32,320 nt of DNA. It comes from Ignavibacteriota bacterium. Its GTDB lineage: Bacteria > Bacteroidota > Ignavibacteria > UBA10030 > UBA6906. Under the pieces are notes generated by a model. The model was not told the origin of the DNA, did not search any database, and saw only the letters and a list, made by a program, of their open reading frames with translations. Where the stretch lies: NCBI GenBank assembly GCA_016218065.1, contig JACRFA010000082.1, positions 1 through 32,320 on the forward strand, written 5' to 3'. This document shows positions 2,965 to 30,435 of this stretch, piece by piece (the first letter of the stretch is position 1; each line of letters starts with the position of its first letter). The position numbers and the translations under genes were made by a program.

Positions 2965-5436
2965 TCAGCGCACAACCATCAGCTTTCTTGTCATCGACAT
3001 TGAGCCAATAGTGAGTCTGTAGAAGTAGACTCCGCTCGCCACGCTTGACGCCTGCCCGTTCGATAGGTGGGCATCCCAAGTGACTGTGTACGCTCCGGCC
3101 GAGAGTTTTTCATTCACAAGCGTTGTTACCTCTCTCCCCAACAAATCAAATATTCTGAGTGTAGTAAGACCTGAAACCTGAATCCTGAAACCAATTGCTG
3201 TCACCGGATTGAAAGGATTCGGATAATTCTGATACAGCTCGAAACTCCCGGGCTGTGCGTCCTCTCGTTTTACCGAAGTAACGCCGCTTGGATATTTCAA
3301 CCTTGGATAGTCGAAGTAGATCGCTCCGGCATACGTGTTCCCTTGAACTCGTGTGCTTCCGAGTTGCACCTCGATCTTCTTCAATCGTACAGGATAATTG
3401 AACACCGCGCTGCCGATGGGAATCGCATTCGCGAACGCCACACGCATCGTGTCGAACCCGTTGAAGCTATTGACGTAGCGACTCGTGTAGATTCGGAATT
3501 GTTCTCCGTCATCGTCGTCGATGTAGAAGATGACGCGATGGCTGCTGCTATCGGCCCGCACGTCGAGCAATAGTGAATCTGGTACGCCGGCGATTGGAAT
3601 GTCTGTTTCCAGCCGCGCAAAGTTCTGCACCGACGGATCGTAAACGAAGCTGTAGTTCAGTTTCAATGATTTCGAGCCGAACGTCGCGACGCCATTCTGC
3701 ACCGCAACGCTCGCAGTCGCATTTGTGCCGGTGGCCGTCCAGCGCGCCGTCGATTCCATCGAGTCGAGCAGAGAGAAGCCGGTGACGACTTGAACTGTAA
3801 CATCCGCAGTGTCGCTCACACCGAGATAGCTTGTGCGCACTTGCGTTGCGCCGGCGAGTTTAGCTTTGAACGCGCCCACTGTATCCACCGCGCCGACAGC
3901 CGGATTCGACACCGACCATTGATACTCGTTCTGCGCTACGCCCTTTTCAACTCCATCCCAATCATACGCTCTTGCTCTGAATGTGACTTTGCGTACCGTA
4001 TCAGTGACAACGTTTTGCGGACTGACGGTAACGCGACCAATTGACTTCACGACGACGAACGCCGAATCACGAACCGATCCATAACGCGCATAAACATATC
4101 CACTGTCGGGAGTCAGCGCGGCGATGAATCGGCCGGCTGAGTCGATTGTGCCAAGGCGCTGCAGAACTGAGAATTGCTTCAGAGCCGGGTTGAGCGGAAT
4201 CGGATTGCCGTACTGGTCCGTTCCATAAAGTGTGAACGTGATCGACTCGCCGCGGTAGATGCGATAGCGCTTCGGGTTCATGTAAATTCTGCTCAGCGTG
4301 TCTTGCGGCGCGCTGGAAACGACGATCAGTGAATTTGAAACAGTGCGCTCTCCTCCACCGTCGGAAGGCGAGTTTGCAATAGCGCCCTGAACAACCATCG
4401 TCGTTGAACCACCGCCATCGAGGTTCACAGCCCGATCAACTCCGAGCGTGATCATGAAGTTTGCGAGTTGGTGCAGCGTCATTCCGGCACTGGTTGTCTG
4501 CCGTCCATCGACCGTCACCAAAAACAATTTTGAGCCGCTTGCGTTATAGCCCGCTGCCGTGCGAGGATGCACTTCATACGTGTGAGAGATTTGTCCTTCC
4601 TCCTGATATCCCTGATCGACGTAGTTCAGTCCGTTGTGAATAATCTTCGGACCGCCGCCCACCATTTGCGTGGTGCGCGCCAATGCCGAAAGTGCGCCCA
4701 TGAACACGCGGATCGTGTCGCCGACATGCAGATTCGTTACCATGAAACTCTGCGCCGTGCCATGACCCGAAAGCACAGCCTTGCCGGCCGGAATCGCGGT
4801 GCTGCCAACACCATCCGTCAACGATTCAACCACGCATCGCATCGTATCATTCACGTACCAACCGCTGAGCGGATTCACGACTGCCTCCGCGCCAAAGATG
4901 TTTGTTCCGGTGTTTGCGCCGAAGTATTTGCTATAGAGAATCAACTGATCTGCGCCGCGTGCTTGATTCACGCCGTTGATCGTTCGCTGCTGCGATGCGG
5001 TCTTCACAAACGAACTAAGGCTGACGATGCCGATCCACGGATCTTTCTGCGCAGTGAATGCAACAACCGAGCGGTGAATGGATTTCAGCAGCATCTCGCC
5101 ATTGCGGATCTGCATGTTCGTTGGTGTGGAGCTGTAGTAGTCGCCATTGGTCGCACCAATCACAGTATGTCCGGCAAAACTATTGCGCGCCGCCATCGAG
5201 CTGGTGCGCTCAAAGCCCGTCATACGATCGAGCGCCTTCACCGACTCCATGGTGATATACGGATTGTCAAGATCAACCTCGAGGACATTGATAGTCCATG
5301 GAACTGCCGGCGCGACGAGTTTCATGTGGATACAGCCCGGCCCGACGGGCAAGCGTTGCAGAGTATCCATCTGAATTTGGCCGAGGGCAGTTGCAACAGC
5401 AAAGAGTAACGCGCAAAGAGTAGAGACTCTTTTCAT
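2965..5436 (-). CDS. Secreted phosphodiester glycosidase (NAGPA domain) with T9SS sorting domain
   Basis: 823 residues from the ATG at 5436, which begins a signal peptide (MKRVSTLCALLFAVATALGQ). Residues ~30-370 form a phosphodiester glycosidase (NAGPA, PF09992-type) domain, with NGDYY at 97-101, an R-T-A-A-G segment and VNLDGGGSTTMVV further on. In this family the domain removes a sugar covering a phosphodiester. Next come bacterial Ig-like (Big2-type) segments and a beta-sandwich resembling a carbohydrate-binding module (LLDSMESTARWTATG...). The last ~80 residues are a type IX sorting domain (YQNYPNPFNP, LGREVTTLVNE, ASGVYFYRL), so the product is predicted to reach the cell surface or medium. 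Substrate unknown. Repeat DNA lies immediately upstream. Confidence 0.88.
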   Translation of the reverse strand: MKRVSTLCALLFAVATALGQIQMDTLQRLPVGPGCIHMKLVAPAVPWTINVLEVDLDNPYITMESVKALDRMTGFERTSSMAARNSFAGHTVIGATNGDYYSSTPTNMQIRNGEMLLKSIHRSVVAFTAQKDPWIGIVSLSSFVKTASQQRTINGVNQARGADQLILYSKYFGANTGTNIFGAEAVVNPLSGWYVNDTMRCVVESLTDGVGSTAIPAGKAVLSGHGTAQSFMVTNLHVGDTIRVFMGALSALARTTQMVGGGPKIIHNGLNYVDQGYQEEGQISHTYEVHPRTAAGYNASGSKLFLVTVDGRQTTSAGMTLHQLANFMITLGVDRAVNLDGGGSTTMVVQGAIANSPSDGGGERTVSNSLIVVSSAPQDTLSRIYMNPKRYRIYRGESITFTLYGTDQYGNPIPLNPALKQFSVLQRLGTIDSAGRFIAALTPDSGYVYARYGSVRDSAFVVVKSIGRVTVSPQNVVTDTVRKVTFRARAYDWDGVEKGVAQNEYQWSVSNPAVGAVDTVGAFKAKLAGATQVRTSYLGVSDTADVTVQVVTGFSLLDSMESTARWTATGTNATASVAVQNGVATFGSKSLKLNYSFVYDPSVQNFARLETDIPIAGVPDSLLLDVRADSSSHRVIFYIDDDDGEQFRIYTSRYVNSFNGFDTMRVAFANAIPIGSAVFNYPVRLKKIEVQLGSTRVQGNTYAGAIYFDYPRLKYPSGVTSVKREDAQPGSFELYQNYPNPFNPVTAIGFRIQVSGLTTLRIFDLLGREVTTLVNEKLSAGAYTVTWDAHLSNGQASSVASGVYFYRLTIGSMSMTRKLMVVR

Positions 5437-5829: not shown

Positions 5830-5860
5830 CTTCGTGTCCTTCGTGACCTTCGTGGATAAG
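5830..5860. repeat. Second copy of the cacgaagg repeat arm
   Basis: The sequence cttcgtgtccttcgtgacc followed by ttcgtggataa repeats the right arm of the hairpin at 1077-1096 (ccttcgtgaacttcgtggat), here without a matching left arm nearby. It is part of the gene-free block between the glycosidase and fasciclin genes. Confidence 0.5.
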
Positions 5861-10760: not shown

Positions 10761-10851
10761 GTTCATTTCCTTTTGCAATTTGTTTTTGATAATGTGAACA
10801 ACGATATGTTGCATCTCTCTTTTTAACTTCTGATTTTCCGGAGGCATCAAT

Positions 10852-10886
10852 CCCCGCCTGCACGCAGAACGCTCCGGCGGGCAGGC
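10852..10886. repeat. ccccgcctg / ggcgggcaggc palindrome
   Basis: The segment ccccgcctg (10852-10860) and ggcgggcaggc (10876-10886) is shared with 5722-5757, the right part of the MITE-like element, although the loop sequences differ. It lies between the RND pump and HMA genes and could form an RNA hairpin in the cluster transcript. Confidence 0.5.
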
Positions 10887-10892
10887 AACAAT

Positions 10893-10943
10893 CCATTACT
10901 CCATTACTCCATTACTCCAATTCTCCATTACTCCAATTCTCCA
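10893..10943. repeat. 8-bp tandem repeat (ccattact / ccaattct)
   Basis: Six consecutive 8-base units, ccattact x3, ccaattct, ccattact, ccaattct, then a partial cca. They sit between the pump stop (10976) and the HMA lipoprotein. They have no spacers and are not CRISPR. Unit number may vary between strains. Confidence 0.8.
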
Positions 10944-10975
10944 CTTCGCAAAAATGAACCTCAGCGTTTGATGGC

Positions 10976-13900
10976 TCACTTCATCCAACTTGCCATCTTC
11001 GACAGCTCCAGCGTTCCCTTCTTCAGCGCTCGTTCTTTCATATAGCTGAAGAGAATCGGGGTCACGACGAGAACGTGAATCGTTGATGTGATCAACCCGC
11101 CGATCATCGGAGCGACGAGCGGCTGCATAACATCGGCGCCAACGCCTGTACTCCACATGATCGGCACAAGACCGATGAGACTTGTTCCAACAGTCATAAC
11201 CTTCGGACGAAGACGAAGCACCGAACCTTCTATCGTTGCCTCGGTAATGTCTTTTTGTGTGATGGCTTCCCGCTGACCGAGTTTGTGGGCATGAATTTTT
11301 CTGTCGAGCGCTTCGTGCAAGTACACGACCATCACCACGCCTGTCTCAACGGCAAGTCCATATAACGCGATGAAGCCAACCCAAACGGCAACCGAGAAAT
11401 TGTACCCGAGAATGTAGATGAGATAGACGCCGCCAATCAGCGCGAACGGAACGGAGAGCATCACGACAAGTGCTTCAGTGAACTCCTTCGTCACCAAATA
11501 TAACATTACGAAGATGATGAAGAAAACAATCGGCATGAGAATCGTGAGACGCTCTTTTGCGCGAATCTGATTTTCCCATTGTCCACTCCATTGCAGCGTG
11601 TAGCCTTTCGGCAGCGAGAGTTCATTGCTCAGAACTTCTTTCGCTTCGGTCACGAAGCTTCCCATATCGCGACCGCGGACGTTCAGGAAGACGATGGAAC
11701 GAAGCTGAGCGTTCTCACTTGCGATCATCGGCGGACCGGGGACCATGTCAATCGTTGCCAGTTGTCCGAGCGGCACGTATGCGCGAGACGAAACCTCGCT
11801 GCGCAAGGCACGCGACTCCGACGCTGGCGCGAGTGAAATCTGCGCCGACGAAGTGCGCGCAGCCGATCTTCCCCACGACGATTGCCCGCCACCCATTCCA
11901 CCGCCCTGCATGCCGCTGCTTTGCACGCTGCCGCCTCCTCCTTCTGCCATCGAGCCGCCCTCGGAAGTTGATTCGCTCATGCCTGTGCCGCCGGTGTTCA
12001 CGGGAACAAGCAAGTTCTTCAGCGCATCAACGCTGGTGCGCGACTCGCGCGAATAACGCACACGAATCGGGAAACGCTGACGTCCTTCGATGACCGTGCC
12101 GATGTTCTCGCCGCCAATTGCCGTCTCGATAATATCCTGCACCGTGCCGATGTTGATGCCGTAACGTGCAACCGCTTCACGATCGATGTTGATGTCGAGA
12201 AAGAGCCCGCCCTGCGTACGCTCGGCGTAGAGATCGGCGGCGCCCGGAACTTTGCGCAGAATTCGCTCAGACTGAATCGCGAGCCGTTCGAGCGTGTCGA
12301 GATTCGATCCGAAAATCTTCACACCCAAATCCGTTCGCACGCCGGTCGAGAGCATGTTGATGCGATTGATGATCGGCTGAGTCCAGCCGTTTCGCACGCC
12401 GGGAATTTGCAGCTTTGCGTCAAGCTCGGAGATGATGTCGTTCTTCGTGATGCCCGGACGCCATTGTTCTTTCGGCTTGAGAAGGATGATAGACTCGATC
12501 ATGCTCACAGGCGCCGGGTCGGTTGACGTCTCGGCTTTGCCTGCTTTGCCGAGAACCGTTTCGACCTCCGGCAGAGACTTGATGATGGCATCCTGAACCT
12601 GCAGGATGCGATTCACTTCGGTAATGGACGCCGAAGGCAGCGTCACCGGCATGAAGAGCAAGCTTCCCTCATCAAGCGGCGGCATGAACTCCGAGCCGAT
12701 GTTAACGATCATTGGAACCGTGATCAGCAGCGCGATGACGTTGATCGCAATTGTCGTCTTCCGAAACTTCAGCACCCAGCGAATAATCGGCGCATAGATG
12801 CGATTCAGAATTCTCGTTATTGGATTTTGATTTTCGGTTCTGAATCTGCCTCTCGTCAGAAGCGTCATCAGCACCGGAACAAGCGTGATAGCAATGATCG
12901 CTGAGCCGAGCAGGACGAATGTTTTGGTGAACGCAAGCGGACGAAAGAGTTTTCCTTCCTGACCTTCCAGCAAGAAAACCGGAAGGAACGATACGACCAT
13001 GATCAGAACAGAAAAGAATATTGCCGGACCAACTTGCTTCGCGGAGACAATCGAGATGTCCGTAAAGTCCTTTTTCGTCAGCTCCCCTTTCGTTGCTTGT
13101 GCATGCGCGACGTTGCGGTATGCATTCTCCACCAGTACAATCGACGCATCAACGATGACGCCGATGGCGAGCGCAATGCCGCCAAGCGACATGATGTTCG
13201 ACGTAATGTTGAACGCCTTCATGAAAATGAACGCAATCAACACCGCGACAGGAATCTCAATGATCACGCGCAGCACGCTTCGGAAATGCAGTAGAAAAAT
13301 CATCACCATAATGCTGACGACAATTGCCGCTTCAATAAGTGCGCGATCGAGCGTGCCGACTGCGGCTTCGATGAGCTCGCTTCGGTCGTACGCGGTTTTG
13401 ATTTCTACTCCGGGCGGAAGTCCGGGCGTAATCTCTTCGATTCTCTTCTTCACACGATCTATCACATCTTTCGCGTTCTCGCCGTAGCGCGCCACAACGA
13501 TGCCGCCGACCGCCTGCCCTTTGCCATCCTTCTCAATCGAGCCGCGACGAATATCGCCGCCAAGCTGCACTGCGCCGATGTTGCGCACGTACACGGGCGT
13601 GCCACTTGCTCCGTTGCCCACGATGATGTTCTCCACATCCCGTGCCGACTGAATGTAGCCCTGACCTCGCACGAAATATTCCGCGTCGGAGATTTCGAGA
13701 ATCTTTCCGCCAACATCGTTGTTCGAACGCATCACGGCGTTGCGAACATCGGCGAGCGAAATGCCGTAGCCCTTCATCCTGTCGGGGTCAACATCAACCT
13801 GATACTGCTTCACGTACCCGCCGACCGACGCAACCTCGGCGACGCCTTGCACTCCCTGCAAGTTTAGCTTGATGTACCAATCTTGAATCGCGCGCAGCGC

Positions 13901-14426: not shown

Positions 14427-16163
14427 TCACTCCACTATGATTTTTCCGTGTAGCATCTTCATCCCGCACGAAAACGGAATCTCTCCGCTTTCCTTCGGCG
14501 TGAACTCGATTGCTGTTGTTGCGAACGCGGCAAGCTTCCGACGAATGCCGAATTTCTCGATGACAAGTTCTTCGCTGCATCGGGAGTTTTCTTCGCGATT
14601 GAAGACGAGCTTCACCGGCACGCCTGCCTTGACTCGAATGACGTTTGGTGAATAACCATCCTTCACGCGAATGCTGACCTCTTGCGTTCCGCTGTGCGCT
14701 GAGTGATCTTCCATTGATGAAGAAGTGTTCTGTTCAACGTCGCTCGCGTTTGTAGTTGCCGATGAAGACTTGTGCCCCGCGTGCGGATCGGCGGCGGTTG
14801 GCTGCTGCAATGCGCTTTCGGAGTCGAGCAAGAAACCGCCGGTCTCGACAACATGCTCGCCCTCATCCAATCCATTCAGAATTGCGGTCGAACCGTTGCT
14901 TGTGGAACCGACGACAACATCGCGCGGCTCGAATGTATTCTCTTTCACTTCAACCCACACCACCGTGCGCTTGCCCGTTGACATGATTGCTGTCGAAGGA
15001 ACCGCGAGCGCTCTCGCCTTCGGAACTGCAATCGTTGCCGTGACGAACCTGTTCGGCTTCAGCTTGAAGTGTCGGTTCGGAAATTCTGTTCGCACACGGA
15101 CAGTGCGCGTTTCGGGATTGACCACAGGATCAACAAACACCACTCGTCCGGCAAACTTCTCGCTCGGATACGCCTCGGTCTTGAGCAGCACGGATTGTCC
15201 CGGCGTGACGAAGCGAATATCTTTTTCGTACACATCGAGGTACGTCCAAACAGTCGAAAGGTCGGCGACATCGTACAGAGCCTCACCGGTTGAAGTGTAC
15301 TGCTGAAGGTCAACGCTCTTCTTCACCACAGTACCGCTCACGTGCGAGTAGATGGTGACCAGATTGCTCACTGCGCGCGTCTCTCTCAATGTGGCAATCT
15401 GCTTTTCGGTGAATCCCCACTGCAGCAGTTTCTGTTTTGATTGTTCGAGAAGTTGCGCCGCCGATTCGGCAAATGTCTGTGCACCGGCCTCCGCTTGTTC
15501 ATGCGAATCGAGCGCGAGCAAATACTCTTGCTGCGCCGAAATCGCTTCGGGACTGTACACCTCGGCTACGCGATCGCCTTTGCGAACAGACTGACCAGTG
15601 TATGAGAGATAGAGCTTTTCCAAGCGTCCGGGGAAGCGCATGCTTATGCGTTGATAGTTCGGCTCGGAGTAGCTCACAATGCCCACGGCTTGGATGTCGC
15701 GGCTGATCTCTTTGCGCTGCGCTTGTATGACCGAGACATTCGCGATCACGCGCTGTGTCGGCGAAAGGCTGACTGACTTCAGGCTTCCGACGCCGCTTGT
15801 ATCGTTGTTGTTCATTGCCGACTTCTTCACGAGCGCCATGCCGCAGACAGGACACGCGCCGGGTCTGTCCGAACGAACCGATGGATGCATCGGGCACGTG
15901 TAATACTCTTCGGCCTTCTCGCCGTCGTGTTGATGCTGCTGCACAGTGTCGGATGATTTTTGATCCGCGTTGTCGGATTTGGTGCAGCCGGCGAGGAACA
16001 ACAGAGCTGCAAATGCAACCCCGCTGACAACAGACCTCATCCCCCAGACGAGGCTCCTCTGAAAAGGATGATTGTCATTTTGAGGATTCTTTGGTCGCGG
16101 AGCTTTGGTTGAGCTATGTCGAAACGCTCCCTCAGAATGACAAGTGGCAAACGTGTTTTTCAT
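14427..16163 (-). CDS. cusB: CusB-like periplasmic adaptor with HMBD and cupredoxin domains
   Basis: 578 residues from ATG 16163, seven bases after AGGA and two bases after the previous stop. Residues ~6-35 translate a palindromic repeat. An internal ATG at 16040 with an AGAGGAG site begins a lipoprotein signal (VAFAALLFLAGC, Cys60), so that may be the working start. Domains: a heavy-metal-binding domain at ~87-112 (YTCPMHPSVRSDRPGACPVC), the membrane-fusion adaptor core at ~130-440 (barrel-sandwich, hairpin, beta-barrel), a His-rich linker (DPHAGHKSS), and a C-terminal cupredoxin-like domain at 494-578 with C529, C566, M568, M570 and H572. It links pump to outer-membrane channel. The C-terminal cupredoxin is unusual for CusB and suggests copper handling. 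Confidence 0.9.
   Translation of the reverse strand: MKNTFATCHSEGAFRHSSTKAPRPKNPQNDNHPFQRSLVWGMRSVVSGVAFAALLFLAGCTKSDNADQKSSDTVQQHQHDGEKAEEYYTCPMHPSVRSDRPGACPVCGMALVKKSAMNNNDTSGVGSLKSVSLSPTQRVIANVSVIQAQRKEISRDIQAVGIVSYSEPNYQRISMRFPGRLEKLYLSYTGQSVRKGDRVAEVYSPEAISAQQEYLLALDSHEQAEAGAQTFAESAAQLLEQSKQKLLQWGFTEKQIATLRETRAVSNLVTIYSHVSGTVVKKSVDLQQYTSTGEALYDVADLSTVWTYLDVYEKDIRFVTPGQSVLLKTEAYPSEKFAGRVVFVDPVVNPETRTVRVRTEFPNRHFKLKPNRFVTATIAVPKARALAVPSTAIMSTGKRTVVWVEVKENTFEPRDVVVGSTSNGSTAILNGLDEGEHVVETGGFLLDSESALQQPTAADPHAGHKSSSATTNASDVEQNTSSSMEDHSAHSGTQEVSIRVKDGYSPNVIRVKAGVPVKLVFNREENSRCSEELVIEKFGIRRKLAAFATTAIEFTPKESGEIPFSCGMKMLHGKIIVE
16072..16143. repeat. Palindromic repeat inside the adaptor gene
   Basis: Inverted 14-mers ttgtcattttgagg (16072-16085) and cctcagaatgacaa (16130-16143), with one mismatch. 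They are the same end motif as the element at 5577-5772 but with a shorter, different centre. The copy sits between the adaptor start codon and its signal sequence and keeps the frame open, contributing about 24 residues. Confidence 0.7.
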
Positions 16164-16165
16164 TT

Positions 16166-17428
16166 TCAATTCCTTTCACCTTTCATTTCAAAAATTCCAG
16201 CATAGCCGACTTCGCGTTTCAACTGAGCGATGGCTTGCTCGAATTGCATGCGCAGCATCAGCTTCTCCATCGATAGCTCGACGAGCATTCGGTACGAATC
16301 GATGAGCGTCAGAAAATCCGTGCTGCCGGTTTGGTATGCCGTCATGCTGGCGCGCAGCGCTTGCTGAGTCTGCGGCACGATCACCCTCGCGTAGTTCTCC
16401 ATCTGCTTCCTTAGTGACTGCGCCTTGAGATACAGCTCGTTGATGTTTGCGCGAACCATGTTCCGCGAGTTCTTGAGAACTTCCTGCGACTTCTCAATCG
16501 AGATGTTCGCCTCTTCTACCATTGCAGCGTTGCGGCTCAGACTCCATGGTGTGAACGGAAGATTGATCCCTGCTAAGACAGTCCACCCGCGAAAATCTGC
16601 AAACGGCTGCCTCACATATTGAACCCCGACTTTGAAATCGGGCAGATATTCTTTCTTCGCTAACGAAAGCATCTCTTCGCTCTCGATGACCGAAAGCGAA
16701 TCGTGCAGCAGCATGCCGCGATAACGCTGCGCGAGATATTGCAACGTGTCTTGCGTTGGAAGATACAACTCGTTGTTCGGAACAGAGGCAACCCCAAGCG
16801 TGTCAGTCGGCGGTCGGTTCAGCAATGCTTGCAACATGGACTTCATCGCAAGCTCCTGCTGGCGCAGCGTCACGAGTTGGTTATCGAGCTTTGCAATCTC
16901 GACGAACGCCTTCAACACATCTTGCTGGGGGGTTTGCCCGACGCCGTAGCGTGTCTGCGCAATCTTCGTGAACTGCTGGAGCAATCTTGCATTCTCGCGA
17001 TTCAATGCAATGGATTGCTGCGCGTACCACAACTCGAAGTACCCGGAACGGAGTTTTGCGAGCACTTCGTTCGCCTTCTCCATGTGATCATGGTGTGCGT
17101 GTTCGGCTTGAATCTCCGCAATCTCGGTTTTCGTCGAGAGCTTCCCCGGAAACGGAATCATCTGCATCAGCTCGATCTTCTGCATCATCGATTCATTCCA
17201 GCGGAAGCCGGGCATTTCTTCACGCATGTATGTCAGTTCAGGATCGTCAAGCGTTCCGATCGCGCCAACTCGCGCTTCCATCGCGTCGCGGTTCAGCTCG
17301 AACGCTTTCATCTCAGGATTTTTCCGCAACGCTTCGCGGACGAGATCGTTGAGGTGAAGCGTGTCGCTGCCGCTTTGCCCGATGAGGCGCAACGGAAGAA
17401 GTAAGAGCAGAGCAAGTATGTGTTTCAT
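16166..17428 (-). CDS. TolC-family outer-membrane efflux factor
   Basis: 420 residues from the ATG at 17428, which starts a signal peptide (MKHILALLLLLPLRLIGQ). An upstream in-frame start at 17470 would run through repeat DNA. Long helical segments with heptad character flank beta-strand stretches: the LNDLVREALRKNPEM entry typical of the outer-membrane efflux family, a GTLDDPELTY strand, and the second half EYLPDFKVGVQYVRQP. This duplicated layout matches OEP proteins that form the trimeric exit duct of tripartite pumps. It lies two bases ahead of the adaptor start codon, so translation is coupled, and it is the CusC counterpart. Confidence 0.9.
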   Translation of the reverse strand: MKHILALLLLLPLRLIGQSGSDTLHLNDLVREALRKNPEMKAFELNRDAMEARVGAIGTLDDPELTYMREEMPGFRWNESMMQKIELMQMIPFPGKLSTKTEIAEIQAEHAHHDHMEKANEVLAKLRSGYFELWYAQQSIALNRENARLLQQFTKIAQTRYGVGQTPQQDVLKAFVEIAKLDNQLVTLRQQELAMKSMLQALLNRPPTDTLGVASVPNNELYLPTQDTLQYLAQRYRGMLLHDSLSVIESEEMLSLAKKEYLPDFKVGVQYVRQPFADFRGWTVLAGINLPFTPWSLSRNAAMVEEANISIEKSQEVLKNSRNMVRANINELYLKAQSLRKQMENYARVIVPQTQQALRASMTAYQTGSTDFLTLIDSYRMLVELSMEKLMLRMQFEQAIAQLKREVGYAGIFEMKGERN

Positions 17429-18292: not shown

Positions 18293-21106
18293 ATGAAACG
18301 ACACGCTCTTGTCTTGCTGTTACTGGCGTTTCACTACACGCCTGAACTCCACGCACAGGATCCGATTGCTGAATGGCAGCGGCCATTTTCTTCGCGTCTC
18401 CTGCCAAGCAACAGCATTCCAGTCGCAACGTTTGTCGACTCCCATGGCAACACGTATGTTACCGGAAGAAGTCAAGGGGCTGATACTCAGATGGACTACC
18501 TCACAGTGAAGTACGACTTCAAAGGACGGGAAGTCTGGTCCGCTCGATTCGATGGGCCAACACACGGTACCGATGCGCCCGCCGCTCTCGCGGTTGACAA
18601 GAATGGAAACGTCTATGTCACGGGATCATGCAGCGCCGGCGGCTTAGGCACCGATATCGCGACAATCAAATACTCATCCACCGGGGATGAAGTCTGGGTT
18701 CATCGATATAGCGGCTCCGCGAACATGTCAGACTATGGCGTCGCGATTGCTTGTGATAACATTGGAAATGTCTTTGTGACTGGAGTAGCTTCCAAAAAAA
18801 ATCCTCCAGGCGCGTACGCTACACGAATCATCACATTCAAATTGGGTGAAGATGGGGTCGAACACTGGCTTCGATTCTACAATGATTCAGAATACAGTCA
18901 GGCCTCAGGGCTTTGCATCGATAGCGTTGGGAATCTGTATATCGTCGGTACTTACCTGAAGCGACTCGCGCTTAACTCATTCCTTCAATGCCTCGTCACG
19001 CTTAAGTACGATTCTCAGGGAGAGTTGCTGTGGTCAGCAGGATATGACCCCGGCGACGGTACTCTTGCCGAGGGGAAAGACATTGCTGTGGACAAACAAG
19101 GACGCGTTACGATTACCGGTGAAGTTAGTCGCGACCCTTCTTTCCCGTTGTATCGCCAACTGTTCGCTTTCGTTGTGATCAACTATGATTCAAATGGCAA
19201 TCAGCAATGGGCGGACACCTTTGGCGGAAGCGGTGAGCGCATGCGCTGCCGACCTACAGCGATGAGCGTCGATCCTCTCGGTAATATCTACATCTCAGCG
19301 ATCGCGGCTCAGCATGATATGACGCTGTTGTTTGGCGAGGAGCTGTTGACTGTCAAATACACTCCGGCCGGAGCGCGCGAGTGGACAGCACACTTTAACC
19401 ACGGTTACCAATCGATCTACGCTGGCGCCACTGCAATTGATCATGACGGAGGCATCTTGGTCGGTGGACTTCTGCAAAACTCGAAAGAACCTTTCTCGAT
19501 CAAGAAAGTCACAGACTACGCATTCGTTCTGAAGCTCTCATCGTCTGGTGGGCGCGAGTGGGTGAAGACATTCGAAGCAAAATACTCAAGCCACATTCCC
19601 TTCCCTACTTTCTCTATGAGCCTGGGGAGCAGACTCTCGATCGCTTTTCCGACCGGGACAATTGACAGCACGACGTTTACGACATTAGCTTTTGACGAGG
19701 TCGAGAATCTTCATTGGCGAAAGAACAAATATGGAGAGAGTAAATCCGACGAGGCGGCGTATCTCCTCGAGCTGGATAGGTTGGAGAATGTCTATGTTTG
19801 TGGAATGAGCAAGGGTAGCGGCACGTCGTTCGACATTCTCACGATGAAGTATGATCTGCGCGGAAATCTTTTGTGGACGGCTCGCTACGACGGGCCGACT
19901 CACAGGGGCGATGCGCCAACAGCCATCGTTGTTGACAGCGCGGGAGATCTGGTGATCGCAGGAATAAGCTATGACGATGGACGTCCTCGGCCTGTCATCC
20001 TGAAGTACACTGCGCATGGGAGATTGGAGTGGGTGAACCGATTGAGTGGACTTAGCAACGTTCAACGCGTGTTCATTGATCCAATGGGGAACATCATCCT
20101 GTCTGTCGATGAAAGCATAGTGAAGTATGATACTCATGGCCAGGAAATCTGGAGAGTCGACCAGCGATCGTATGCAATTGGCGTCGATAGAAACTCTAAC
20201 TTGTACTACATTGCCAAAGGAATCTGGAATCCGAACATCAGCACGCCAGACACCTTGTTCAAGCGAGGTCCTAATCTTGAGTCGCATTGGACACGTGTGC
20301 TCACTTCTGATGTGAACGAGGTACGCCTTGACGATCAAGGCTCGGTCTATCTATTTGGCTATGCAGGACAAGACATTAAGATCGACACGGCAGGCAACAA
20401 TCTCTGGAGCATGAGTTCGGCTGGGTACGACCACAAAATAGATTCTCGAGGAAACATCTTCGAACATGGAAGCAACATGAGGTTCCGCAAGATCCGAAGC
20501 AACGGAACGCTTGCATGGGAAGGCGCTTATGCAGGACTCGACGTCGTATTCGATTACCAGCCTGGACGGAACGGCAACATTACGGCAATTGGCATGAAGG
20601 GCTCGACTTATCCGGGCACACCTACGATCAGTTCACTGGATTCAAATGGAGTGATGCAATGGTGGATTCCGCTGGATGAAGGAACGAATCCTCTTAAGGA
20701 ATCATTCGGTGTTCGCACTGCGGAAGACGGCTCGGTGTACGCGATTGCCAACGGACAGCGCGACGATTTCTCGACGTATCCGGTGCTCCTCAAGTACAAG
20801 CCAGAACCACAGACTGCCGAGAGCAACCGGTCGAAATTGCCATCGGTGGTCACGTTGTCCGAAGCTTATCCAAATCCATTCAATCCGACTACCGCGATCC
20901 GGTTCACATTTCACCGCTCACAATTGACGATTCTCAGGGTGTACGATCTGCTCGGTCGCGAAATCGCAACGCTTGTGAACGAAGTGTTGACGGCGGGACA
21001 TCATTCGGCGACATGGGATGCGAGCCATGTTGCAAGCGGCATCTACATCTGCAGACTGGAATCAGGAAGCGCGGTGCTCAGCATGCGGTTGATGGTCGTG
21101 AAGTGA
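18293..21106 (+). CDS. SBBP-repeat beta-propeller protein with T9SS sorting domain
   Basis: 937 residues from the ATG at 18293, chosen for its GAAGGAG site (18278-18284) and signal peptide (MKRHALVLLLLAFHYTPELHAQ). Most of the protein is a tandem series of about 50-60-residue SBBP-type repeats with the pattern 'A...D..GN.YVTG.S......D..T.KY...G...W..R(Y/F)' (for example VDKNGNVYVTG, DYLTVKYDFKG, WSARFDGPTHG), forming one or more beta propellers. The last ~85 residues are a type IX sorting domain (SEAYPNPFNPTTAIRF, LLGREIATLVNEV, ASGIYICRL). It is predicted to be exported to the surface; ligand unknown. It is divergent from the efflux cluster, and the 274-base gap (18019-18292) should hold both promoters, but no clear box was found. 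Confidence 0.88.
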   Translation: MKRHALVLLLLAFHYTPELHAQDPIAEWQRPFSSRLLPSNSIPVATFVDSHGNTYVTGRSQGADTQMDYLTVKYDFKGREVWSARFDGPTHGTDAPAALAVDKNGNVYVTGSCSAGGLGTDIATIKYSSTGDEVWVHRYSGSANMSDYGVAIACDNIGNVFVTGVASKKNPPGAYATRIITFKLGEDGVEHWLRFYNDSEYSQASGLCIDSVGNLYIVGTYLKRLALNSFLQCLVTLKYDSQGELLWSAGYDPGDGTLAEGKDIAVDKQGRVTITGEVSRDPSFPLYRQLFAFVVINYDSNGNQQWADTFGGSGERMRCRPTAMSVDPLGNIYISAIAAQHDMTLLFGEELLTVKYTPAGAREWTAHFNHGYQSIYAGATAIDHDGGILVGGLLQNSKEPFSIKKVTDYAFVLKLSSSGGREWVKTFEAKYSSHIPFPTFSMSLGSRLSIAFPTGTIDSTTFTTLAFDEVENLHWRKNKYGESKSDEAAYLLELDRLENVYVCGMSKGSGTSFDILTMKYDLRGNLLWTARYDGPTHRGDAPTAIVVDSAGDLVIAGISYDDGRPRPVILKYTAHGRLEWVNRLSGLSNVQRVFIDPMGNIILSVDESIVKYDTHGQEIWRVDQRSYAIGVDRNSNLYYIAKGIWNPNISTPDTLFKRGPNLESHWTRVLTSDVNEVRLDDQGSVYLFGYAGQDIKIDTAGNNLWSMSSAGYDHKIDSRGNIFEHGSNMRFRKIRSNGTLAWEGAYAGLDVVFDYQPGRNGNITAIGMKGSTYPGTPTISSLDSNGVMQWWIPLDEGTNPLKESFGVRTAEDGSVYAIANGQRDDFSTYPVLLKYKPEPQTAESNRSKLPSVVTLSEAYPNPFNPTTAIRFTFHRSQLTILRVYDLLGREIATLVNEVLTAGHHSATWDASHVASGIYICRLESGSAVLSMRLMVVK

Positions 21107-28591: not shown

Positions 28592-30373
28592 CTATTGTAA
28601 CAGCAGCAGCTTTTTCGTTTGAACGAAACTTCCTGATTCAAGTCGGTACAGATAAACGCCGGATGCATGACCATTCGCGTTCCACTGCACGGAATGAGTC
28701 CCCGGTTCCATCACCGCATTCACCAACGTAGCCACTTCGCGACCGAGAATGTCGAAGACCTTCAGTGTCACAAATCCCAAATTCCAATCTCCAAATTCCA
28801 GGTCGGATCCGTATTGGAATTTGTGATTTGGGATTTGAAATCTGATCGTTGTTGTTGGGTTGAACGGATTCGGATAATTTTGCATAAGCGTCGGCGTCAA
28901 CGCCAGTTGTTCGCCAGGTTGAACTTCCGACGGGCCGGGATTGCCGAGAGTGCCGTCGAGGTTCACGCGCTGTCCGTACACTCCGTTGTCATCGAGACGC
29001 TTGTCGGCCCACACGACCAACGATGCACCTGCCGCTGTGATTGCCCCGGTGAGTCTTCCCTTTCCACTGACGAGCGACGAAATATCTTTGATGGCGCCAC
29101 CCCACAGCATGTTGCCGTTACGATCCGTACGAAAGCCCTTGACGACGTGAGTTGTTCCCGTTACGAGTTGGAGATAGTAAACAACTGCGGATGAATCCTT
29201 TCCGTACGCTCGCACGAACGACGGCTGTGTCGAACGTTCGAGCTGCTTGAACGCAACGCCAGAATCAGCCCATACGCGATCGCCGGTCGGCGAAAATTTT
29301 TGTCCGTACACTCCATAATCTCGTTGGAAAGCCGCGTCAGTTTCATACCAAAACATATACGTCTCTCCTGTCATCGGAGTAAATGCAACCCACGCATCGT
29401 TGTGCAACCGACCCGACAGCGTAGATCCGGCTGACCCGTTTGTTGGAAAAAGTTTCGTGCCGGTCGAAGTGATGCGTTGAACATTCGAGAACGAACTTCC
29501 TGTGCTGTTCCTGTCGTCGTGCCACACACACAATGCGCCGTTGTTGCCGTCGGGAATCATCTTCGGCACAAAGAAGCCGGACACGCGGCCAAGGCCATAC
29601 ACAGTGTCAGGATTCGCGTTCCACACCGATGCGCCTGCGGCGGAAATCTTGCGCGCGTAGATTCTGTAGTTCGAAGGACTGATGAACGTTCCGGTGTAGC
29701 CTGAGTGCGAAAGCAAGACGCTGCCGTTATCAGAGCGAACGATGTTGGGATAATCAAGATTCTCGCTTCCGCTTCCCGCCCAGAGAATCGGATCAGCGCC
29801 CCACTGCCTCACTCCTGCCGCGTTGAGTCGTTGCATTGCGATCTTCCTTGGCGTGGAACTAAAAATCCATGCGAACACAAAGCTTCCGTCAGATGTCGCC
29901 ACAACTTTCGGATTGGGTTGAAAGGTCGATGAGGAAGTCGAAAGCGCAACGCCATTCGCTCCCCATCGGAAGTCGCCGTTGGGAGAAATTCTGTAGGCGA
30001 ACGGTTCAATCGATCCGCCGTTGCGAATATCGGTGAACACGACCACAGCGTTGTTGCTGTCATCAACCGCAAGGTCATAATCGACAGTCGATGTGTTCTG
30101 CGGATTGGCGCTGATCAACAACCCCTGCGATGCCCATTGCTTGACACCCTGAGCATTGAGCCGTTGCATGAAGACTTTGTAACCGCCGCCTCGAGTGTCG
30201 AACCACGACACGTAGCATCCTCCGTCGCTCGTCGCTACGATCTTCGGCAACTCCTGACTGCCACTCGTATCGGCGATCGCGAGATTGACGTTTGCATCCG
30301 ACGACCATTGTGCAAAAGCAGACGTCGCTGCGACAACAGCAACGAGGAACAACGATAAAGTAGAAATTCGCAT
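28592..30373 (-). CDS. Secreted repeat protein with interrupted T9SS sorting domain
   Basis: 593 residues from ATG 30373, which opens a signal peptide (MRISTLSLFLVAVVAATSAFAQ). The body is a series of ~45-50-residue repeats of the type 'P.IV.TSDG...V.W.D.R.....KVFMQRLNAQGVKQW', probably a beta propeller. A type IX sorting domain follows (LMQNYPNPFNPTTTIRFQIP, LGREVATLVNAV, ASGVYLYRL). Between IRFQIP and VTLKVFD about 20 residues (~513-534, KFQYGSDLEFGDWNLG) translate a palindromic DNA repeat and are absent from the sister domains at 2965 and 18293. Export to the surface is predicted; whether the insertion harms sorting is unknown. Confidence 0.87.
   Translation of the reverse strand: MRISTLSLFLVAVVAATSAFAQWSSDANVNLAIADTSGSQELPKIVATSDGGCYVSWFDTRGGGYKVFMQRLNAQGVKQWASQGLLISANPQNTSTVDYDLAVDDSNNAVVVFTDIRNGGSIEPFAYRISPNGDFRWGANGVALSTSSSTFQPNPKVVATSDGSFVFAWIFSSTPRKIAMQRLNAAGVRQWGADPILWAGSGSENLDYPNIVRSDNGSVLLSHSGYTGTFISPSNYRIYARKISAAGASVWNANPDTVYGLGRVSGFFVPKMIPDGNNGALCVWHDDRNSTGSSFSNVQRITSTGTKLFPTNGSAGSTLSGRLHNDAWVAFTPMTGETYMFWYETDAAFQRDYGVYGQKFSPTGDRVWADSGVAFKQLERSTQPSFVRAYGKDSSAVVYYLQLVTGTTHVVKGFRTDRNGNMLWGGAIKDISSLVSGKGRLTGAITAAGASLVVWADKRLDDNGVYGQRVNLDGTLGNPGPSEVQPGEQLALTPTLMQNYPNPFNPTTTIRFQIPNHKFQYGSDLEFGDWNLGFVTLKVFDILGREVATLVNAVMEPGTHSVQWNANGHASGVYLYRLESGSFVQTKKLLLLQ
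28771..28837. repeat. Palindromic caaatcccaaattcc repeat in a coding region
   Basis: Left arm 28771-28788 (caaatcccaaattccaat) is an inverted, gapped match to right arm 28813-28837 (attggaatttgtgatttggg, then atttg). The centre carries another ccaaattcca. It lies within the sorting-domain codons of the 28592-30373 gene, in frame. Confidence 0.7.
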
Positions 30374-30435
30374 GGCAAAGCCTCCTAACGTTCTTGAGAT
30401 GGTGAAGTGTCGATGTGGGAATGACGAATGCAAAT

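Follow-up and report, generated by a model that had tools for sequence, protein, structure and literature searches.

How a long palindrome comes to be translated inside the sorting domain of an exported T9SS protein, and whether it stands there alone or as one case among many, are the questions raised by this locus. The window, that is, the whole stretch of 32,320 nucleotides that was analysed, corresponds to C317, one of the 319 contigs of a draft genome of 5.17 Mb that is 97.5% complete and 0.27% contaminated. The features on which the argument depends are the following, with the basis of each assignment in brackets:

28592..30433, minus strand: gene of an exported 613-aa protein that ends in a T9SS type-A sorting domain (ORF; TIGR04183/PF18962)
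28604..28876, minus strand: sorting domain (CTD), residues 520-610 by TIGR04183 (TIGR04183/PF18962; AF2 model)
28771..28837, no strand given: 67-nt imperfect palindrome of CAAATCC/CAAATTC-type 7-mers (arms, DNA fold, motif enrichment)
28778..28831, minus strand: codons of the turn NHKFQYGSDLEFGDWNLG, model residues 25-42 (loop lengths; AF2 secondary structure)
2974..3225, minus strand: second sorting domain of the window, with a bare 16-residue turn (comparison)
20864..21097, plus strand: third sorting domain of the window, with a bare 16-residue turn (comparison)

The palindrome and the domain that contains it

The palindrome recorded in the preliminary description of this DNA is indeed present: its arms (28771-28794 and 28814-28837, 24 nt each) are 83% complementary and flank a spacer of 19 nt, and the folding energy of the translated strand, taken as DNA, is -17 kcal/mol (z -4.1), where 200 dinucleotide shuffles gave -8.25 +/- 2.13 and none was equally stable. 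The motif CAAATYCCAAATYCCAA, with up to two mismatches, occurs five times in the window (0.04 expected), always inside 28771-28844. The repeat starts with CAAATCCC, without GTAG at the end of the stem-loop, and an Rfam scan of the window gave no match above the gathering score.

The palindrome is read in frame within the 613-aa product of the ORF, a gene whose relatives are found in the same genus, family and order; the protein around the insert reads PNPFNPTTTIRFQIPNHKFQYGSDLEFGDWNLGFVTLKVFD. The turn lies between beta1 (TTIRFQIP) and beta2 (FVTLKVFD), and the outer codons of the palindrome form the end of the former strand (FQIP) and the start of the latter (GFVT). The segment from PNPFN to LKVYD measures 31 residues, against the usual 16, so that of the earlier claim of about 20 in-frame residues added between the strands, the frame holds and the number falls to 15; in the two sister domains of the window the strands are nearly adjacent, as had been said, both having the bare turn.

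The domain with the insert, at the very C-terminus of the protein (residues 520-610 of 613), scores above the cut-off of both family models, with 30.1 bits for PF18962 (cut-off 27) and 29.5 bits for TIGR04183 (cut-off 23); its two neighbours reach 36-37, and these models would thus penalise real domains with long turns. Its named relatives belong mostly to metagenome genomes of the Ignavibacteria/Chlorobi type, and the host would accordingly be an uncultured bacterium of this class. The AF2 model of the domain (m79c34079b734) has a mean pLDDT of 80.5, rising to about 90 or more from beta2 onwards, with strands predicted at residues 17-24, 43-50, 56-65, 68-75, 82-90 and 93-101; residues 25-42, the insert, are modelled with low confidence between E17-24 and E43-50, and the Ig-like beta-sandwich is kept, the predicted fold being intact around them. 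The Foldseek matches of this model are weak (no E below 0.001) and include two solved T9SS sorting domains, the mirolase CTD 8qb1 and PorZ 5m11. In Porphyromonas gingivalis, export needs the C-terminus and the loop beta3-beta4, an 11-residue replacement in the loop beta5-beta6 is tolerated, and the beta1-beta2 turn is not among the needed motifs (PMC11285876), so that a neutral extension of the turn would be the simplest view of the insert. That the insert may alter sorting, as the preliminary description proposed, would be possible but is unsupported, given the position of the turn outside both needed motifs, the score above the family cut-off and the predicted fold.

Turn lengths and repeat families in the genome

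The 80 bases around the repeat, searched against the genome, matched intergenic tandem arrays of the 7-mers and also other sorting domains that have the repeat in this position, and a genome-wide set of 199 distinct sorting domains was therefore compiled. The turn, measured as the residues between PNPFN and LKVYD, has 16 residues in 103 of the 199 domains and 17 to 38 in the other 96; the first view of the insert was too narrow, as it is one of about 96. The variation in length is concentrated at this turn, the other segments of the CTD being nearly constant: among 180 parsed domains, the segment before the loop beta3-beta4 has 10 aa in 175 and that before beta6 has 9 aa in 157. Repeat-like inserts are seen rarely in other loops of the domain, namely NEEKPARPAGGPPGTY before the loop beta3-beta4 and GDASASSEHSPSAGSGQSF in beta6-beta7 (L134, C64:33806-34111; L093).

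The long turns hold at least seven unrelated repeat families, many of them palindromic, that also occur in intergenic DNA. Classified by a hand-made regex, they are distributed as follows:

CAAATCC 7-mer type: 17 long turns
GAAGTCG 7-mer type (SEVRSQRSEV): 13 long turns
GTAGGGAC...GTCCCTAC palindromes (VGTGHAPSL; VGTGPAGTTLAGRHAPSL): 15 short and 13 long
CCCTCTCCC...GGGAGAGG palindromes (PSPSGRGEK): 9 long turns
TTCACAA 7-mers: 7 long turns
AATGGGAGA: 4 long turns
CCTGCC: 2 long turns
Matching no defined family: 16 long turns

The GTAGGGAC...GTCCCTAC palindromes (families c and d) have GTAG at their ends, and their inserts are read in one frame, which suggests copying or selection; the 7-mer, CCCTCTCCC and AATGGGAGA families are without this tag. 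In some long turns one repeat lies inside another. At two loci (L180, L175) a GTAGGGATCCCTTCGGGAC palindrome and a 7-mer palindrome share one turn, the former lying beside or within the latter.

The long turns fold with a median z of -2.2, 39% of them below -3, a value passed by 1-5% of the bare turns and of the upstream and downstream control segments. Perfect hairpins of 9 bp or more number 1.48 per kb in the turns, 0.11 in other ORFs (a 13-fold difference) and 1.15 in the remaining DNA, and there are none in the 38.6 kb that make up the remainder of the sorting domains; of six repeat-like hairpins booked under other ORFs, two are sorting-domain turns missed by the regex, two are outside any long frame and two share a single doubtful frame of 132 aa. 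The 12-mers of the long turns occur at 2.4 per k-mer per Mb in non-coding DNA versus 0.44 in ORFs (about 5.5x), and those of the bare turns at 0.24 in non-coding DNA. The exact 28-mer GTAGGGACGGGGCATGCCCCGTCCCTAC is found outside long frames (L016, L116) as well as in a turn (L190). With the same 7-mers between genes and orthologues at 71-73% identity lacking the insert, the earlier statement that these repeats can enter coding DNA without breaking the frame is borne out. The hairpin density per base of original turn is several-fold above that of intergenic DNA, so that tolerance alone may not suffice, and targeting or copying between sorting domains probably adds to it.

The origin and spread of the inserts

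A bare turn is found in the orthologues of the window gene from two sister species (71% identity) and from four other genomes (45-73%, measured over the residues that precede the sorting domain), and the same peptide was not found conserved in distant homologues, in keeping with what had first been proposed. Bare turns account for 113 of the 128 in the sister genome G001. When cargo genes were paired with this genome by reciprocal best hits at >=50% identity, 18 pairs were bare in both, 8 were long here and bare there, none showed the reverse, and 3 were long in both with differing sequences; these pairs indicate that most inserts are young. A filled/empty pair lies within one gene cluster on contig C288 (L087), where the compared flanks are identical and the difference consists of the 24 bp CCCACACTGAGCGTAGCCGAAGGG. 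Replacement of the whole sorting domain was considered for this gene, but along the protein the identity to its orthologues declines by degrees, from about 78% to 35-60% at the C-terminal end, so that no breakpoint can be placed.

Beyond this genome, related families within the order and class have dispersed repeats of other kinds at this turn (CCGCCGAAGGCGGATCCGCCTCTGGCGG, GTAGGGGCAATTCATGAATTGCCCCTAC, GTAGGTCGGAATGGTATTCCGACTTAC), and further genomes of the class have other palindromes there (GATTCCCGCATTCGCGGGAATGAC, CATTCCGAACGAAGTGAGGAATC, CCTGAGCGGAGTCGAAGGG), as does the isolate Stygiobacter electus (L333) with GTAGAGACGTCATATATGACGTCTCTAC; GTAG ends are seen in several of the palindromes from other genomes. 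A last set from the class, GTAGGGACAAGTCGCGACTTGTCCCTAC and others, of which one lies in G140 (L432), a genome in a single contig, was found with queries that themselves contained inserts, and it therefore speaks for existence, not frequency. The single-contig genome G185 also has a repeat at this turn, and an HMM-ranked search of single-contig genomes found 2 of 32 turns to be long, a lower bound only, because the ranking favours short turns.

The same site, the many families, the same DNA between genes, the clean filled/empty pair and the bare orthologues together support the idea that the beta1-beta2 turn is very probably a place where, in this genome and in the class, dispersed repeats land recurrently and in frame and are tolerated, the window insert being one such copy. 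The repeats would arrive independently, by insertion or template switching, and would then spread onward among the roughly 200 paralogous sorting domains in short tracts of gene conversion; in-frame copies would survive, as the turn would face away from the export motifs and merely a hairpin would lengthen.

An alternative explanation is that each family was inserted once and was carried further by the duplication or shuffling of whole CTDs between cargo genes, as some pairs that are near-identical throughout (up to 98% downstream) might suggest. However, the mean identity of the flanks is about equal within and between insert families (60.8% and 59.5%), while within families c and d the identity of the inserts is 92-93%, beside flanks at 55-67%, and the inserts thus have a history of their own; these flank identities led us to reject whole-domain duplication as a general cause, and we hold this explanation to be quite improbable. 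Somewhat less improbable, if still unlikely, is an insertion targeted to the turn, in which a transposase of the IS200/RAYT type would direct GTAG-tagged and other palindromes there through a target sequence or a local hairpin. GTAG...CTAC palindromes with different cores do occur at the same codon position in several families of the class, the genome has two Y1 transposase genes, and the density per original target exceeds that of intergenic DNA; on the other hand, both transposases match the IS200/IS605 model and reach only 23.5 and 21.4 bits with the RAYT model, far below its cut-off of 80, so that a RAYT gene was not found in this genome at its 97.5% completeness, no GTAG elements were evident in the transposase flanks that were read, and three kinds of repeat in the turns are untagged. 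RAYT-driven mobility of the window repeat itself was rejected on the nature of the transposases and of their surroundings. A bolder form of the idea, which we would treat as a rather long shot, makes the turn an actively targeted cassette site, to which a transposase or hairpin-guided gene conversion among the ~200 paralogous tags would bring palindromic repeats by preference, and the repeats would be of use to the cell by diversifying or recombining its export tags.

The long turns could also be thought to mark an old functional subtype of the CTD with a long beta1-beta2 hairpin, its DNA being palindromic merely from similar residues in both strands, and the near-identical turn QIPNSNRQxGFxxSxLGFVS shared by three C1 genes and one gene of the sister genome would fit such a subtype; yet unrelated peptides stand at the same place, the same DNA lies in non-coding regions, the orthologues are bare and the filled/empty pair differs by 24 bp, so that this very improbable reading is already contradicted. 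Least credible of all is an artefact of metagenome assembly: the draft is in 319 contigs, some of which (C280 and C244) end in the same 7-mer arrays, but all the inserts are in frame in intact genes, the genome is nearly complete with little contamination, and the phenomenon recurs in an isolate and in single-contig genomes.

Known repeat systems and further repeats of the window and genome

The STRR-like repeats of cyanobacteria are short tandemly repeated 7-mers, and the present genome has in common with them the 7-nt period and intergenic arrays such as (TTTGGGA)n; unlike them, it has an inverted pair inside a coding region, and the unit sequence is another. Another likeness is found in the Rickettsia palindromic elements (RPE; Ogata, Claverie; cited in PMC3733652) and other protein-coding palindromes, which are dispersed palindromes lying in frame in protein genes and between genes, the protein gaining tens of residues, as with the turn inserts. 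The turn repeats have the corresponding traits, being dispersed in the genome, present outside genes, in frame, and absent from orthologues; but RPEs occur in many unrelated proteins and form few families per genome, whereas here there is one domain type, one turn and many families, and the host is not Rickettsia; the likeness is in the manner of insertion alone. GTAG-tagged REPs are likewise known inside genes, as in recB of two Xanthomonas species, where the sites nearly coincide (PMC3733652), and they share GTAG ends with families c and d and with some palindromes of other genomes; here, unlike in GTAG REPs, two tagged ends are joined in one near-perfect palindrome and no RAYT gene was found, and the window repeat, made of 7-mers without a tag, falls outside the GTAG/RAYT definition. 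In its manner of working the window repeat would resemble RPEs and intragenic REPs (PMC3733652).

The mitochondria of Nematomorpha likewise have coding sequences that contain long inverted repeats and still give functional proteins (PMC6649704); both arms encode conserved protein regions there, whereas here they fill a variable turn. In P. gingivalis, BrickBuilt and other MITEs lie beside CTD genes, 29% of the CTDs being reported as MITE-associated (PMC4596501), and they too are mobile palindromes linked to genes for T9SS cargo; they are intergenic neighbours, however, and the repeats described here are inside the sorting domain. The literature was searched for palindromes or repeats in T9SS sorting domains, and no earlier account of them was found. 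Coding palindromes are thus already known, and what would be new is a domain-specific landing site for many repeat families in genome after genome. An export tag can absorb repeated "junk" DNA in frame, with about half of roughly 200 tags affected, and the dozens to hundreds of paralogous filled and empty sites per genome amount to a natural experiment, which could tell how palindromes move, how far gene conversion reaches between paralogues, and where the T9SS signal can vary freely.

Other repeats were noted in passing. Contigs C280 and C244 (G000) have long (TTTGGGA)n arrays at their ends, where the draft assembly seems to break. In the window, a tandem array of about eight TCCATTAC/TCCAATTC 8-mers occupies 10884-10952, between genes ending at 10850 and starting at 10976, and two copies (95%) of CCTTCGTGAMCTTCGTGGATAA, apparently non-coding and presumably belonging to a widespread dispersed repeat, lie at 1077-1098 and 5838-5859. 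The frame 14427-16169(-) begins with CHSEGAFRHSSTKAPRPKNPQND (16100-16169), ahead of a lipoprotein-like signal; the frame may have the wrong start codon and so take in a dispersed repeat. Elsewhere in the genome, a 7-mer repeat at the 3' end of a putative DNA methyltransferase gene (L007 1501-1525; C104:7121-7145) lengthens the C-terminus of its product (TNPKSQIPMF...).
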